Origin: Phlebopus portentosus
Taxonomy: Eukaryota > Basidiomycota > Agaricomycetes > Boletales > Boletinellaceae
Direction: 5' to 3'
NCBI GenBank assembly: GCA_037892935.1
Contig: JAYXKI010000004.1
Span: forward strand, 930,001-994,000
Length of the DNA stretch: 64,000 nt
A program made the translations under genes and the position numbers. Of this stretch, positions 56,678 to 64,000 are shown in pieces. Every line of letters starts with the position of its first letter. The stretch's first letter is position 1. The notes beneath the pieces were generated by a model. The model saw only the letters and a program-made list of their open reading frames with translations. It searched no databases and had not been told where the DNA came from.

Positions 56678-57115
56678 TGTTAGGCGGTGAGACTAACGGG
56701 TGTCAATCTCGAGGCGGCCAACACAAACAACTAACAGCTGGCTGAATGCAAGCTGTCAGGCAATATGCATGCTAAGTCGATCGTGAAGGTAAGTAAAATA
56801 GTCACGACTAAATAATACAAGAATGAGTAGATACCTAAGTCGATCGTGAAGGTAAGTAAAATAGTAAGACAGGGAATTGAAAAGTCAGACTATCTACTTA
56901 TATTCACTTTGAGTGTGAGAGAGGTCTACTCTATTAAGGGATCACATGATGAAGGAATGGGGTGATTAGTGAGCAAGATGGAACATTGTAGAATGTTTCA
57001 GTGAATGGATGAATAAGTGCATAAGAAAATAAAAGAAAAGAAAAAATGAATATTAAAATGAATGATGATATAAGAAAAGAAAAGGAAAATGTTCGAGTCC
57101 TTACATCACCCCTCT
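56678..57115 (-). mobile_element. LTR-A of a Ty3/gypsy element (minus orientation)
   Basis: 438 bp bounded by TGTTAGGCGG and CTTACA, similar to the LTR at 57756-58173 along its whole length. It is a 3' LTR of a minus-strand element, because it is followed by a polypurine tract and the pol 3' end in the matching order. It contains a ~40-bp internal tandem duplication around AAGTCGATCGTGAAGGTAAG. Confidence 0.85.
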
Positions 57116-57262
57116 CTCAAGGTTGGGCATCCCAACCAACCACATAATCCTTCCAATGATGTGAATTTGTACAGTGCTCACAGGCTTTGTCGAGGTATCA
57201 TTAACTTCCTCAGTGCTCCAGGATGTTTGCAATAAAAATCCTGAATTGATTCGCTCACATTG
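57116..57262 (-). mobile_element. 3' internal remnant of element A
   Basis: About 147 bp matching 58174-58325: the polypurine tract and the last part of pol. The rest of this element is missing; the match stops at the border with LTR-B. Confidence 0.8.
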
Positions 57263-57691
57263 TGTAAGGACTTGAGCATTTTTCCTTTTCTTTTCTTATG
57301 TCATCATTCATTTTAATATTCTTTTCCTTTTCTTTTATTTTCTTATGCACTTATTCATCCATTCGCCAGAACATTCTACGACATTCTATCATGCTCACTA
57401 ATCATCCTATTCCTTTATCATGTGATCCCTTAATAAGAGTAGACCTTTCTTATGCTCAAAGTGAATATAAGTAACTAGTTTGACTTTTCGATCCCCTGTC
57501 CTACTATTTTACTTACCTTCACAATCAACTTAGGTATCTACTCCACTCTTGTATTATTTAGTTGCAACTATTTTACTTACCTTCACAATTGACTTAGCAT
57601 GCGTATAGCCCGGCAGCTCGTGTTTAGCCAGCTGTTAGTTGTTTGTGTTAACTGCCCTGAGATCAATGCCTGTTAGTCTTGCCACCTAACA
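57263..57691 (+). mobile_element. LTR-B, opposite orientation (plus)
   Basis: 429 bp, an inverted copy of LTR-A: it begins TGTAAGGACTTGAGC and ends CCACCTAACA. It is a 5' LTR, since the next 64 bp match the leader of the chromovirus. Confidence 0.85.
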
Positions 57692-57755
57692 TAATAATAA
57701 GACCTACTCTCAAGCCAGTGGAAATGCTCGCTGTCACTACTCCATGCAAGGAGTC
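57692..57755 (+). mobile_element. Leader remnant of element B, interrupted by element C
   Basis: Starts TAATAATAAGACC and parallels, in reverse complement, the leader next to LTR-D (63880-63936), including CTACTCCATGCA. It is cut at 57755, where LTR-C begins. GAGTC (57751-57755) is the candidate target-site duplication of element C. Confidence 0.7.
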
Positions 57756-58173
57756 TGTTAGGCGGCGAGACTAATGGGCGTCAATCTCGAGGCAGCCAAC
57801 ACAACAACAAATAACTGGCTAATGCGAGTTGCCGGGCTATACGCACGCTATGTCGCAGTGAAGGTAAGTAGAATTCAACAAACTAATAATACAAGAGTAG
57901 ATACCTATGTCGCAGTGAAGGTAAGTAGAATAGAAAGACAAGGAACGAAAGAGTCAAACTATCTACTTATATAGACTTTGAGCATGGGAAAGGTCTACTC
58001 TAATAGGAAGTCACATGATAAGGAATGAGATGATTAGTGAGCGTGATAGAATGTTGTGGAATGTTCTGGCAATTGGATGAATAAGCGCATAAGAAAAATA
58101 AAAGAAAAGGAAAAAGAATATTAAAATGAATGATGACATAAGAAAAGAAAAGGAAAATGTTCGAGTCCTTACA
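57756..58173 (-). mobile_element. LTR-C (3' LTR of the chromovirus)
   Basis: 418 bp, TGTTAGG...CCTTACA on the plus strand (TGTAAGG...CCTAACA in element orientation), ending in TG/CA as expected. It has the same internal tandem duplication as LTR-A (two TATGTCGCAGTGAAGGTAAG units). Confidence 0.9.
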
Positions 58174-58186
58174 TCACCCCCCTCTC
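58174..58186 (-). other. Polypurine tract
   Basis: In element orientation GAGAGGGGGGTGA directly abuts the 3' LTR, the primer site for plus-strand synthesis. It also encodes the last residues and the stop of pol. Confidence 0.85.
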
Positions 58187-61100
58187 AAGGTTGGGCGTCC
58201 CGACCAACCACATAATCCTTCTGACGATGTGAACCTATACAGTGCTTGCATGCTTTGTCGAGGTATTGTTAACTTTCGCAGAGCTCCAGGATGTTTGCGA
58301 TAGAATTCTTGAATTGATTCCTGTGCATTATCCTTGACGTCGGATTCCGGCTGCCATGTCACTTCCTCATATCCAACCCACTTGACCAAGAACTGGAGCC
58401 TTCCTCGATGTAGACGTGAGTCGAGTATTTCTTCAACCTCGTACTCTTCTTGTTCATCAATGATCACTGGCGGGGGTGGAGGCAGCTTCTTTTGTGATTC
58501 GAAAGACAGTTGAACAGCCGGTTTGAGTAGGATCTCGTTAAAGATGGGATGAACGTGTTTCCATGTCTTCGGGATCTTTAGCTTATATGCGCTCACACCC
58601 ACCTTTTCCATAACCTCGAATGGGCCAAACCATTTGTCGTCCATCTTCTTCGTCGGTCAGATCATCTTAATGTTTTGACCATCCAAGAAGACCTTTTGTC
58701 CCATCTCATAGACTACCGACTTTCCAGCATGACGATCATAAAAGCGTTTCATGTCTTCATTGGCCTGAGTCAGATTGGCCTGAGCGAGTTCGTGTATTCC
58801 CTTGACATGTTTGGCAAACTCTTCTGCCGATAGATTGGATGAAGTCGTTCCAATGCCCGTGAAGCTAGAAGGGTGTTGTCCCGTGTTGACAAAGAAGGGT
58901 GATAGTTTGGTCGCCGAATGTTCACGATTGTTGTGCGCAAACTCTGCGAGAGCTAGCCAGTCCGCCCAGTCTGATTGTCGATGATTGACGTATAGTCGAA
59001 GGTACTGTTCGAGTTCTTGCTTAACTTGTTCCGTCTGTCCGTCCGTTTGAGGGTGGTACGCCGTTGACGGATTGCCTTCGATGTGAAGGAGTTTGTACAA
59101 CTCTCTCATCATCTTCGCATCGAACTGTACTCCTCAGTCATGGATAATCTTTCAAGGTAATCCGTGCAACCGGAAGACATGGTCCCTGTAAATCCTGGCC
59201 ATTCCTTCTGCCGTCAATTTTGTCGTCGTTGGTATCGCATGGATTTGTTTGCTGAAGCGATTGACTACCACACAAATTGCGTTAAATCCATTTGACTCCG
59301 GCAACTCTCTGATCAGGTCGACTGTGACAACTTGCCATGGCGCCTCCGGTACCTCGTTAGGGTGCAAAACCTTTGCCCTTGTTGTTCTGAGGGCCTTCGT
59401 TCGCTGACAATGATCACATCCTCGCACGTAATTCCTGACATCGACGTACATGTTAGGCCACCAGAAACTTCTGTTTGCTAGTGCAACGGTCTTGTTCGCT
59501 CCTGGGTGGCCTGTCAACGTCGAGTCATGACACTCCCTCATCACTTCCTCCCTCATGCTCGTCGGTACGAAAACATTTTGAAACTTCTTTGTCTTCGTCA
59601 TTGAGAGCTTAACCGTCACCTCCTTTTTCCACAACCCATCTACGAACACTAAGTTCGTCGGTCTCTCTTCCTCATTCAACTCCGTTTGTGCTTTTCAAAT
59701 CTTCTCAATCAACACGTCTCGTGACGTCTCTACTGCTCCTCTGACCAGCCATTTGTCTCTGATGAACGTGACGTCCTCATTATCCTGTTCGCCCTTGTTG
59801 TAGTCTGCCCGACATGACAATATGTCCGCCTTGCCCAACGTCTTCCCTGGCTTGTGTACTAACATGAAGTCGAATTCAGCTAAATCGAGTCGCCAACAAG
59901 CTTGTCGACGATTCAACTTTTGAGGTGATCAGAAATACGTCAAGTTTGCATGATCGGTCCATACTTCGAAAGGTCTCTTGGCTCCTTGGAGGTATTGTCG
60001 CTATTCCTTAAGAGCTTGGACGATTGCGAGCATCTCTTTGTCATAGATCTCGTAATTTTGTTCAGCCTCCAAGAAGGTCGACGATCAATAGGCTATCACC
60101 TTCCACTTGTCGTCTTGTTTCTGAAGGAGCACTCCTCCAGATGCAAAGTCCGACGCATCTGCTTCGACCCAGAAAGGACCCTCCTCGTTCGGGATGGCTA
60201 GAACCGGGGGACTACTCAACCGACCCTTCAACTCTTCGAATGTTCGTTGTTCCTCCTCTCCCCACTTCCATTCCACCTTACCCATCAGCGTCATCAGGGG
60301 TTTAACGACAGAGCTATAGTCCTTTACGAATCGTCGCAACCAATTCCCTAGTCCCAGGAATTGTTGCAGTTCGTGAATGTTTCGCGGGATTGGCCACTCC
60401 TGAACTGCTGTTATCTTTTTCGGGTCCATTCGAACCTCGCCATTACCGATGATGTGTCCGAGATACTTAACTGTATCAACCTCGAACTCACATTTCTGCA
60501 GCTTCAGGAAAAGTCCGTTTTGACACAGGATTTCAAAGACTCGTTTGGTGCGTTGGCGATGTTCCTCCAAATTATTCGAGAAAATGAGGATGTCGTCGAG
60601 GTAAATGATGACAATACCCTCATGGATCATTTCTCGAAAGATATTGTTCATGAAACCTTGGAATGTCGCTGGCACATTGCATAATCCGAAAAACATGACC
60701 GTTGGTTCAAATAAGCCTAAATTCGTCCTAAACGCCGCCTTCCATTCATCGCCCTCTCGAACCCAAATGTTGTAATATCCCCAGTGAACGTCGAGCTTCG
60801 TGATGTATTTTGCATCCTTGACCTTATCGATGAGCTCATTTATCAATGGCAATGGGTATTTGTTCTTAACCGTTCCTTCGTTAAGCTTTCGATAGTCTTG
60901 GATTGCTCATAAGCTCCCATCTTCCTTCTTAATAAAGAAGAACGGAGATGCCATCGGGGATTTCGACTGTCGGATGCGTCCAGATGCTAGGTTCTCTTCG
61001 ATAAATTCCTTCATTGCCTCTTGTTCCTTCGGCGACAATGGGTAAACCTTGCAATCGCTAGGCTTAAAATCTGGTTTCAAGTCGATAGCATGGTCCCACG

Positions 61101-62106
61101 TTCGATGGTTTGGTAGGCGTTCAAACGATTCTTCACTAAAAACGTCCACATATTCTTCCAGATAAGGTGGCCACTTCGCCGCCTCCTTCATCTGCACATT
61201 CCTCACAAATTCTTCGTCTATCTCCTCGCTCGGTAGTGACAACTCACATTCATCAGGGCAACGCATGAACTTGACTGTTCCTGACCTCCAGTCGATCTCA
61301 GGATTGTGCTTCGTCAACCAGTCATGTCCGAGGAAGATGTTGCTCGATGCTAAGGATGTCACCGCCAGTTGTATCTCCTCTTCATGTTTCCCAAAGAACA
61401 TTCATACGACTACATATTCCTTGATCAATCCCGCCTCATTGCTTGTTCCGTCAGCATTGAAGACTGGTCTAGGCCGAATGTACCTTTGGGTGGGGAAACC
61501 GTATCATTTGACAAAACCCTCGTTGATACATGAACCCGTGCATCCCGAGTCAATTAGCGCATGAGCATCAATGAAGTTTTCCTCTTCGAGTAGAGGGTTT
61601 GACAAATCTACTTCATCATCGCCCGCTATCTTTGGGTGTACGATGCTAACGAAGGCATCCAACTCTTTTCCTCCCGCCCTCCTGACGAATTGATCTGCAT
61701 CCACTATGCCCTCGCGCCATACCTCAGCTGTGCGTCTGCCAACCACATCCCATACTGCTTCAGTATTGTTCGCCTGAGCAACAACGTTCTCGCGGTAAGG
61801 TGCTTCCACCTCAACCTCATTTTTTATAGCGGTTTGATTCTGCTCTTCCACACTAAGCTCGTTTGAATCGCCTGCTTGTGCATTCACTTTTCTAACCAAC
61901 AAATCTGTGTAGACGTCGAAGTCATCATCGTCTGCTTCAGGTTCGTCAGGTATTACGTCGGTAAGGAGTTTTCAAAGGGTGAAACCGTCACTGATATTCG
62001 CATCTTGGTATTGTACATCAGGACAATTATATTTTAATGAGTCCAACGAAAAGAATCCTTTAGGTGATCGACCAGTCGTTCCGACGTCTACGTCTGGTCT
62101 TCCGGA
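58174..62106 (-). pseudogene. pol polyprotein (PR-RT-RH-IN-chromodomain), 11 stops
   Basis: One continuous reading frame from 62106 down to the stop at 58174, broken by stops at 61972, 61504, 61402, 60907, 60085, 60001, 59929, 59695, 59152, 59134 and 58657 (lowest coordinates). Domains in order: aspartic protease ALIDSGCTGSC; reverse transcriptase with TKLDVHWGYYNI and the catalytic YLDDILIFS; RNase H with VEADASDFASGGVL; integrase with the zinc-binding H/CDHCQ end, catalytic Asp in TVDLIRELP, then HD-stop-GVQFDAK, and AYHPQTDGQTE; and a C-terminal chromodomain, EYEVEEILDSR to LVKWVGYEEVTW. No frameshift is needed anywhere, so decay is by point mutation only. Ten stops are TGA and one is TAG. 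Confidence 0.93.
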
Positions 62107-63611
62107 AAACCCTCGCCATCCACGAGTTCTTCCAGCTCAGTCGGCACTGCTCGCACATCGATGTCGTCGACCTCTTCGAAGGAGGATTCCTTTACTTGGC
62201 CGAGTTCCTCGAAGAGCGCCTTTCTGTCTGCTGGAACAAAGGCCGCAATAATTGCACGTATCGCTTCACGGCCTCGGGGGCATTCCCAGATGTAGTGGCC
62301 CACTTGACCACACTTATAGCAAGCACGTGCATGACGCACCTGATTCATCATCACCTCCATCGGCTGACCTAGGCCTCCGTATGTTACTCCAGTCGCATCA
62401 CGACGATCTTGGGCGGGAGGGATGAAAGGGCGAGTCGCTTGTTGAGGTGGCCCCGAACGTCTTAGTGGCGGTGGTGCTGGTTTCATCACTGTTGAGCCGA
62501 CCGTCTTCCTCCTATGCTCGGCCATTAGATCCCTGATCTGACGCTCAACCCTGTTGACCTTGACTGCAGCCTTCTTGAATTCCTCATACGTTGTCGGCTC
62601 ATTGGGTAGGCGCATGATACCTTCAACCACCTTCGGGTTTAGTGCTCGTTTCAAGCGACTCATCAGCCATTCGTCATGAGCCTCGGTGGCCAGTCCAGCG
62701 TCAACTCGACAGATGTCAAACTTATTGAAGAACTCGTCGGCGTTGAGGTCCCCTTGGTACATCGCGTCGAGCCTTTCGAAGGCCTTCTGGGAACGAGCTG
62801 GATCATCAAATGAGGTGTCAAGTTTCTTTAGGAAAGCATCCCAAGTGTCCTTGAATGCTATCCTACCCTGTTCGTCAATTGCGCCACTCGTGTAGCTTTC
62901 CGCCCAGCTCGCAGCAGCACTGCTCTTCATATACGACAGAGCGAACATGATCTTTGCTTTGCTCGTCCTAAACTCTGACTCTGACGTGTAAACATACAGG
63001 CGCAGCTCTCGTTTGAAGTCGACATATCCGTGTTCACCGTCGAAGTCTCGGGGCTTGGCGACATGAACCTTGTTTGTCTTCAATCCTTGGCTCATTCCTT
63101 CTCCTGCCGCTTGGAGTGCTAGCACGATCGCCATAGCAAGGTCCGTTATTGATTCTTTCGATAATGACATCTCTTGTTCTTGTTCTTCTTGTTCTTCTTC
63201 TTCGTCTGTTGGTACAAGCGGAGCTGGCTCTCGTGGTTCAGTGAAAGACAACGAGGGTGCTATGGGTGGAGCTGACGTCTGGCCTGTCGATGTTGATGGC
63301 CCTGGTAATGAAGCCGTTGATCATGTGGGGGTAGGGGGTGCGGGGTCGTCTACGTCACCATCTTGTTTCGCTCTCCAATATTGGGACTTGTCGCCTCTGG
63401 TAGAGTACCACTTCTTCGTAGTCTCATCCCACCAAGCAATGAAGGTTTGATCGCCCGACTTGACGATATACTGTCCTCGTGACGCGCTCCACCTAGTGTT
63501 TGTCGGGAGAGCCGCCTGCTGATCGTCAGTTAGATCCACCTTGATAGGCCGGAGGTAGAATGGGGATCGAGATAGTGTTCGGACGGGACCAACTTCGGAT
63601 GACCGGCTCAT
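62088..63611 (-). pseudogene. gag polyprotein with one premature stop
   Basis: ATG at 63611, end at TAG 62088-62090: 507 codons plus stop, interrupted by a single TGA at 63321-63323. The N-terminal part (MSRSSEVGPVRTLSRSP) is followed by a Pro/Ser-rich stretch, an acidic EEEEQEEQEQE segment, a helical capsid-type region (PRDFDGEHGYVDFKRELR, AFKDTWDAFLKKLDTSF) and a zinc knuckle, CYKCGQVGHYIWEC (C-x2-C-x4-H-x4-C). It assembles the virus-like particle in active relatives. Translation of the second part from an internal start after the TGA is not supported by a good ATG. Confidence 0.9.
62106..62112 (-). promoter_or_regulatory. Slippery heptamer G GGT TTT for -1 gag-pol frameshift
   Basis: In the gag frame the element reads G GGT TTT, fitting the X XXY YYZ rule, 15 nt before the gag stop codon. 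A -1 slip enters the pol frame, which is open from this point (SGRPDVDVGTTG). A downstream stem-loop was not modelled. Confidence 0.6.
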
Positions 63612-63936
63612 CTTTGAAATTGACGACTAGTCGGAAGGCACCAAGGTAGATGATGAACGAGATGCTCGATGATGATTGGACTCTATGAGTCACCCAAGAG
63701 AATGTCTGATGCGAGTTCCACAGAAGAGTGATTCGGAGTGCCACAATTGGAGGGTTGATTGATTATTTCGGGAACTATCGGGACACGTCAAAGTCAGTCG
63801 GACCTTGACGGGCAAGATAGGGGTTGCTCGGATAACTCCGGGATGGGCGCGGTTGTTGACCGTCGATGTGTCTCCTGCATGGAGTAGCGACGAACGAGTG
63901 GTTAACCCACGGGTTCGAGAGTGGGTCTTTCTATTA
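63612..63936 (-). mobile_element. Chromovirus leader / primer-binding region
   Basis: A 325-bp untranslated leader between 5' LTR and gag. Directly after the LTR it reads TAATAGAAAGACCCACTCTC, not a classical TGG primer site; a TGGGTTAACC stretch lies about 29 nt further in. The primer is therefore undetermined. Confidence 0.6.
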
Positions 63937-64000
63937 TGTTAGGCGGTGAGACTAACGGGCGTCGATCTCAAGGTGGCCAACACAACAACAAACAACTGGC
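63937..64000 (-). mobile_element. LTR-D (5' LTR, truncated by window)
   Basis: The first 64 bp, TGTTAGGCGGTGAG..., align without gaps to LTR-C with seven differences, all transitions. Confidence 0.85.

Follow-up and report, generated by a model that had tools for sequence, protein, structure and literature searches.

We examined a 64,000-nucleotide stretch of the Phlebopus portentosus genome (hereafter, the window; assembly GCA_037892935.1, contig JAYXKI010000004.1, positions 930,001 to 994,000 of the forward strand), the right end of which is occupied by a Ty3/gypsy chromovirus on the minus strand. This copy carries 12 premature in-frame stop codons in gag and pol, nearly all of them TGA codons in columns where most related copies in the same genome have CGA. 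From comparisons among these copies, we consider it likely that methylation of transposon CpGs, followed by gradual deamination, inactivated the element.

Organization of the chromovirus copy

The element is bounded by two long terminal repeats (LTRs) of 418 bp, at 57756-58173 and 63937-64354 in window numbering; its left end at 57756 is exact, and its right end lies beyond the window, so the outlying portion of the 5' LTR was taken from the surrounding contig sequence. The features are as follows:

57751..57755: left copy of the target-site duplication GAGTC (right copy at 64355-64359, beyond the window), read from the letters flanking both LTR ends
57756..58173, minus strand: 3' LTR, 418 bp, with 12 differences from its partner at 63937-64354
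58174..58176, minus strand: native TGA terminating pol, abutting the 3' LTR and excluded from the premature count
58174..62136, minus strand: pol frame with 11 premature stops (10 TGA, 1 TAG), comprising reverse transcriptase (RT), RNase H, integrase H2C2, SH3-like and chromodomain pieces
60001..60003, minus strand: the lone premature TAG, at a non-CpG site
62088..63611, minus strand: gag, with capsid and CCHC zinc knuckle and one premature TGA at 63323
62106..62112, minus strand: GGGTTTT heptamer in the gag-pol overlap, a candidate -1 frameshift site
63937..64000, minus strand: the 64 bases of the 5' LTR that lie within the window

The LTR pair and target-site duplication, together with the Ty3-type order of gag, RT-RNase H and integrase and the presence of a chromodomain, identify the element as a member of the Ty3 group. 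Pfam searches with the separate pieces of the chromovirus matched Retrotrans_gag, zf-CCHC, RVT_1, RT_RNaseH_2, Integrase_H2C2, SH3_Tf2-1 and Chromo, and gave no match to protease or integrase-core families. In its LTRs, CCHC gag, RT-RNase H, integrase H2C2 and C-terminal chromodomain, the window copy resembles other Ty3/gypsy chromoviruses, of which it is an ordinary but disabled member.

The pol frame lies downstream of gag (63611-62088), in the -1 frame relative to it. The GGGTTTT heptamer, present in 27 of 30 copies including the window copy, is presumably a slippery site and would fit a -1 frameshift; the related copy L014 has an uninterrupted pol frame from 62136 through the end of the extracted locus. 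At the end of pol, the TGA at 58176 is TGA in all seven copies with an aligned pol end (10 were tried) and was for this reason taken as the normal terminator; a row for copy L018 showing TAA was set aside as a match extending from the 5' LTR, with no pol end.

Premature stops and their counterparts in related copies

The initial annotation of this stretch, made from the sequence alone, had counted 12 in-frame stops without frameshifts, attributed several of the TGAs to former CGA arginine codons and the TAG to a former TGG, and read the whole set as the mark of CpG deamination in a methylated transposon. The count is reproduced in the three minus-strand frames listed: 11 TGA, 1 TAG and no TAA. 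In pol, the TGAs are at 61974, 61506, 61404, 60909, 60087, 59931, 59697, 59154, 59136 and 58659, and the TAG is at 60003; the single stop in gag is the TGA at 63323.

The frames, too, are as described. No coding frameshift was seen in alignments of gag and pol with the relatives L011 and L014, with zero gap columns against either across 4316 aligned bases; in the remaining 5' part, the gaps are one of 12 bases, divisible by three, within gag in the L011 alignment and one of 1 base upstream of gag in the L014 alignment. The 12 bases additional in L011 fall in a GAA-type repeat of gag, at window position 63204 on the minus strand.

The relatives also bear out the proposed ancestral codons. At each of the ten pol TGA columns, the 29 other aligned copies show CGA in 20-27 rows, CAA in 1-7 and TGA in 0-6, with few other codons, and at the gag column the nine aligned copies show CGA seven times and TGA and CAA once each, such that most relatives carry CGA or CAA at all 11 TGA columns. 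Were every one-transition route to a stop equally likely, at least 10 of pol's 11 stops would arise from CGA with P = 1.4e-5. The TAG column reads TGG in 29 of 29 other copies, as had been proposed, and the change from TGG to TAG is a transition outside CpG; hence the reading as a CpG-deamination signature holds for 11 of the 12 stops and fails for the TAG. Across the compared stretch of the pol frame, 23 less diverged copies contain 66 TGA, 6 TAG and 6 TAA, and all 30 copies, including the window copy, contain 93, 22 and 16, respectively.

At the 31 positions where L014 has CGA codons in the compared pol stretch, the window copy has 10 TGA, 3 CAA, 16 intact and 2 otherwise altered codons. Its number of TGAs is rather high, with about 5 expected at the CpG rate of 91/578. 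Pooled over 11 decayed copies, these codons yielded 46 TGA and 39 CAA, with 239 intact; the two products are similarly common (P = 0.52 for equality), as symmetric CpG decay predicts.

Alternatively, the stops could have been inherited from a single dead master copy, or TGA could be decoded as sense. A few stops are indeed common to other copies, for example to L012 at 60087, 58659 and gag 63323. The set of sharing copies, however, changes from column to column, and L011 has none of the 12 stops in common with the window copy. Long open frames persist in many copies, the conserved TGA at pol's own end argues against recoding, and the LTR differences described below postdate insertion. We therefore give almost no credence to either possibility.

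Genome-wide, 491 reverse transcriptase candidates were found, of which 150 were scored; many have frames longer than 1200 amino acids. Stops inside the listed RT pieces comprise 14 TGA, 5 TAA and 1 TAG.

Substitution spectrum

Changes in the window copy were polarised by two agreeing references, L011 and L029. The alignment to copies from the same genome that the initial annotation had proposed as a check reveals the expected excess: C>T changes occurred at 43 of 373 CpG cytosines compared with 9 of 1367 others, a 17.5-fold difference in per-site rate (P = 1.3e-21). T>C changes number 12 of 1919, some of which may be sites decayed in both references, and transversions 5 of 3659 sites. Three further reference pairs put CpG C>T in the window copy at 11-12%. 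Counts limited to strictly private changes are too low, since other copies changed at the same CpGs, and the two-reference counts were preferred. Seven of the 30 copies, the most diverged or gapped (L013, L017, L019, L020, L035, L037, L038), were kept for the stop-column counts and placed outside all rate counts. Pooling 10 copies, with L033 omitted as a near duplicate of L029, gave C>T at 477 of 3544 CpG, 111 of 4821 CpA (2.3%), 54 of 4260 CpC (1.3%) and 31 of 4640 CpT sites (0.7%).

An active, repeat-triggered and CpG-directed process akin to repeat-induced point mutation (RIP), operating in bursts at the sexual stage, would also concentrate C-to-T changes in repeats, as seen here, and CpG-biased RIP-like mutation has been described in basidiomycetes in PMC4014442 and PMC4352252; the slight pooled excess at CpA is another point in its favour. 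Such a dedicated repeat-sensing process would mutate transposon CpGs faster than passive deamination of methylcytosine while sparing a gene located between repeats. Several features of the spectrum speak against such a process. Neurospora-type CpA bias was not seen in the window copy, where CpA sites changed far less than CpG sites (5/480 vs 43/373), and CpA-type RIP was rejected on the pooled counts as well. The changes are scattered and spread over both strands (25 vs 27 C>T), and the 47 CpG changes form 28 runs by strand compared with 24.5 expected, that is, without clustering. Nor was a TpCpG preference seen in the window copy (TCG 12/155, other NCG 31/218) or in the pooled copies (190/1498 vs 287/2046, P = 0.25), with the four NCG contexts behaving alike; TpCpG mutation was rejected accordingly.

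Timing of decay

The two LTRs of an element are expected to be identical at insertion, a consequence of retrotransposition, and differences between them accumulate afterwards. The LTR pair of the window copy has 12 differences, all transitions, 11 of them CpG-type (P = 7e-11, counting twice one CpG that changed on one strand in one LTR and on the other strand in its partner). Because the LTRs, presumed identical at insertion, now differ mainly at CpG, decay in this copy followed insertion.

LTR pairs were comparable in 5 of the 10 other copies with both ends, with at least one LTR not found in L012, L032, L013, L020 and x1. The L011 pair has 7 CpG-type differences, 2 other transitions and 1 transversion; L014 and L018 each have 1 CpG-type difference and 1 other transition; L039 has 9 CpG-type differences, 2 other transitions and 1 transversion, with 11 gap columns; and x2 has one of each class, with 174 gap columns.

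Between copies, the CpG-type share of substitutions ranged from 0.61 to 1.00 over 19 pairs, a hand-chosen subset of the possible pairs, so that the CpG excess is present at all ages examined. Among the four closest pairs, CpG-type changes made up 5/5, 10/10 and 10/10 in three and 6/8 in one. The graded share across pairs matches the expectation of gradual decay. It also speaks against a RIP-like burst, given the many intermediate levels of decay, including pairs with merely 5-10 changes, and on balance we regard such a process as unlikely.

Distribution of decay between repeats and genes

The observed/expected (o/e) CpG ratio is 0.95-1.12 in 4-kb bins over the first 56 kb of the window (bins unscreened for repeats). 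Near-intact Ty3 copies have a ratio of about 1.2, and the internal part of the window copy 1.00.

A direct comparison of repeats and genes comes from contig C4, where a stretch at about 1.49-1.59 Mb (loci L063 and L064) is present in three units, spaced 39.4 and 39.8 kb apart, that contain Ty3 copies together with a Crinkler-domain, kinase-like gene. L033 and L029, the Ty3 copies of two units (232 and 257 CpGs in the pair), differ by 66 CpG-type changes, 12 other transitions and 2 transversions. The gene block of the same two units (2837 bases with 171 CpGs, Crinkler-domain and kinase-like frames by Pfam, the last 76 bases matching Ty3 LTR ends) has 2 differences, none of them CpG-type. A CpG-poor part of the units (o/e 0.48), the last 612 bases of which match many places, has 12 CpG-type changes, 7 other transitions and 1 transversion, and the final part, 748 bases with matches to many Ty3 copies, has 5 CpG-type changes and 3 other transitions. 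By Fisher's test, the gene block departs from the Ty3 copies with P = 1e-17 (using their mean CpG count of 245 as the denominator) and from the CpG-poor part with P = 2e-7. In the places tested, namely, this one duplication, subject to the question of its history raised below, and the CpG content of the window, decay is concentrated in repeats over genes.

These data bear on the possibility that CpG is hypermutable across the whole genome and transposons are not targeted. The CpG excess was found in the Ty3 pairs examined, which leaves that explanation some room; against it stand the CpG ratio near 1.0 across the rest of the window and the absence of change at 171 gene-block CpGs beside heavily changed Ty3 sequence, the latter with the same caveat on the history of the block. 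We consider it very unlikely.

Further repeats, older than the chromovirus copy, flank it. On its left, LTR-like pieces in both orientations occupy 56678-57691 (CpG o/e 0.49 across 56678-57755). On its right, it is adjoined by a Ty3 relative in the opposite orientation (L050, 64360-70000 in window numbering; CpG o/e 0.32).

Candidate cytosine methyltransferases

Four loci in the genome match the cytosine methyltransferase family, and domain and exon matches indicate that three of them are candidate CpG methyltransferase genes, two DNMT1-like and one DNMT5-like. In the DNMT5-like locus, a methyltransferase exon (E 2e-129) and an SNF2 exon (3e-87) both match chain 7r76 best, and helicase pieces are found as well; we take 7r76 (entry name Rad8) to be Cryptococcus DNMT5. 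Named DNMT5 relatives among the matches listed include those of Leucoagaricus (60% over 77% of the query) and Armillaria (65% over 43%), as well as others, one of them from an alga. The first DNMT1-like locus has an adjacent RFD match. The second combines a methyltransferase exon with a weak BAH match below the cut-off, and one of its exons has no match among solved structures. The two DNMT1-like loci would be the candidates for a methyltransferase of the RID/Masc1 type, as expected under Neurospora-type RIP. The fourth locus is DNMT2-like and matches tRNA methyltransferases.

Discussion

Methylation of the transposon CpGs is suggested by the substitution spectrum, the near confinement of changes to repeats and the methyltransferase genes. 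The chromovirus copy would have inserted intact or nearly so, in a host that methylates CpG cytosines in transposons through DNMT1-like and/or DNMT5-like enzymes. The methylated cytosines would then deaminate over time, probably passively, to give TpG or CpA, turning CGA arginine codons into TGA when the change falls on one strand and into CAA when it falls on the other, so that the copy would have been disabled mainly by CpG C-to-T changes on both strands after insertion. The account of the stops given in the initial annotation is accordingly supported in its CpG component, by the spectrum excess and the codons of the relatives; its TAG falls outside CpG, and its methylation component keeps the standing of a probable explanation.

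Several observations weigh against this explanation or limit its reach. One of the 12 stops, the TAG, is not CpG-derived, and the products of CGA decay in the window copy are uneven, although not significantly so (10 TGA vs 3 CAA, P = 0.09). Pooled C>T at CpA is slightly above that at CpC and CpT, a rise that can come in part from CpG sites already changed in the references; a weak CpA component may also accompany CpG decay. In the C4 duplication, 225 sites separate L030, the third unit's Ty3 copy, from L033, whereas the three units show about 100% identity in the gene block, so parts of the duplication may have separate histories, with the gene block possibly kept uniform by conversion or selection. 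Because of this mismatch, we slightly lowered our confidence in methylation and deamination and slightly raised the standing of genome-wide hypermutability. Furthermore, 15-36% of substitutions in the more diverged pairs are not CpG-type, and in a related open-frame subfamily (7 copies), CpG-type changes account for 31-65% of substitutions in 18 of the 20 pairs with any, and for 5/6 in the remaining two. Lineages still transposing would also diverge through other changes, of the sort expected from errors in reverse transcription. CpG decay covers the death of the inserted window copy, not all the divergence between active lineages.

The CpG decay of this copy is a well-supported case of a kind already known in basidiomycetes. 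According to PMC4352252, CpG-only C-to-T signatures in basidiomycete transposons are tied to a Masc2-like DNMT1 and methylcytosine deamination, and PMC4014442 describes CpG hypermutation in Rhizoctonia solani AG8, with TGA as the expected primary nonsense product; the present genome resembles these systems in C-to-T change at repeat CpGs and in its DNMT1-like enzymes. PMC4014442 also expects agaricomycetes to show a CpG rather than a TpCpG bias, which the family of the window copy matches, and the TpCpG preference reported for Pucciniomycotina was not seen in the present Ty3 copies. In contrast to R. solani AG8, where CpG mutation is described in both genes and repeats, none was found in the gene block adjoining repeats. 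The parallel with classical RIP of Neurospora extends to C-to-T changes in repeats that create stop codons, but here CpA is not the main target and the decay is graded, not burst-like. CG methylation located mainly in transposons is reported for two Pleurotus species in PMC6627472, and this, together with the transposon CpG methylation described for Agaricus bisporus in PMC7473861, would predict the repeat-centred CpG decay seen here. In those fungi methylation was measured, whereas in P. portentosus what is seen is its likely mutational footprint.

The kinds of stop codon in a single raw sequence anticipated the mutational spectrum of an entire transposon family and, through that spectrum, its probable methylation. 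PMC4014442 leaves both passive methylcytosine decay and a RIP-like process open for Rhizoctonia. The graded series of copies in P. portentosus could date insertions and, combined with methylation and cross data, could distinguish, for mushrooms, between passive decay and a RIP-like process.

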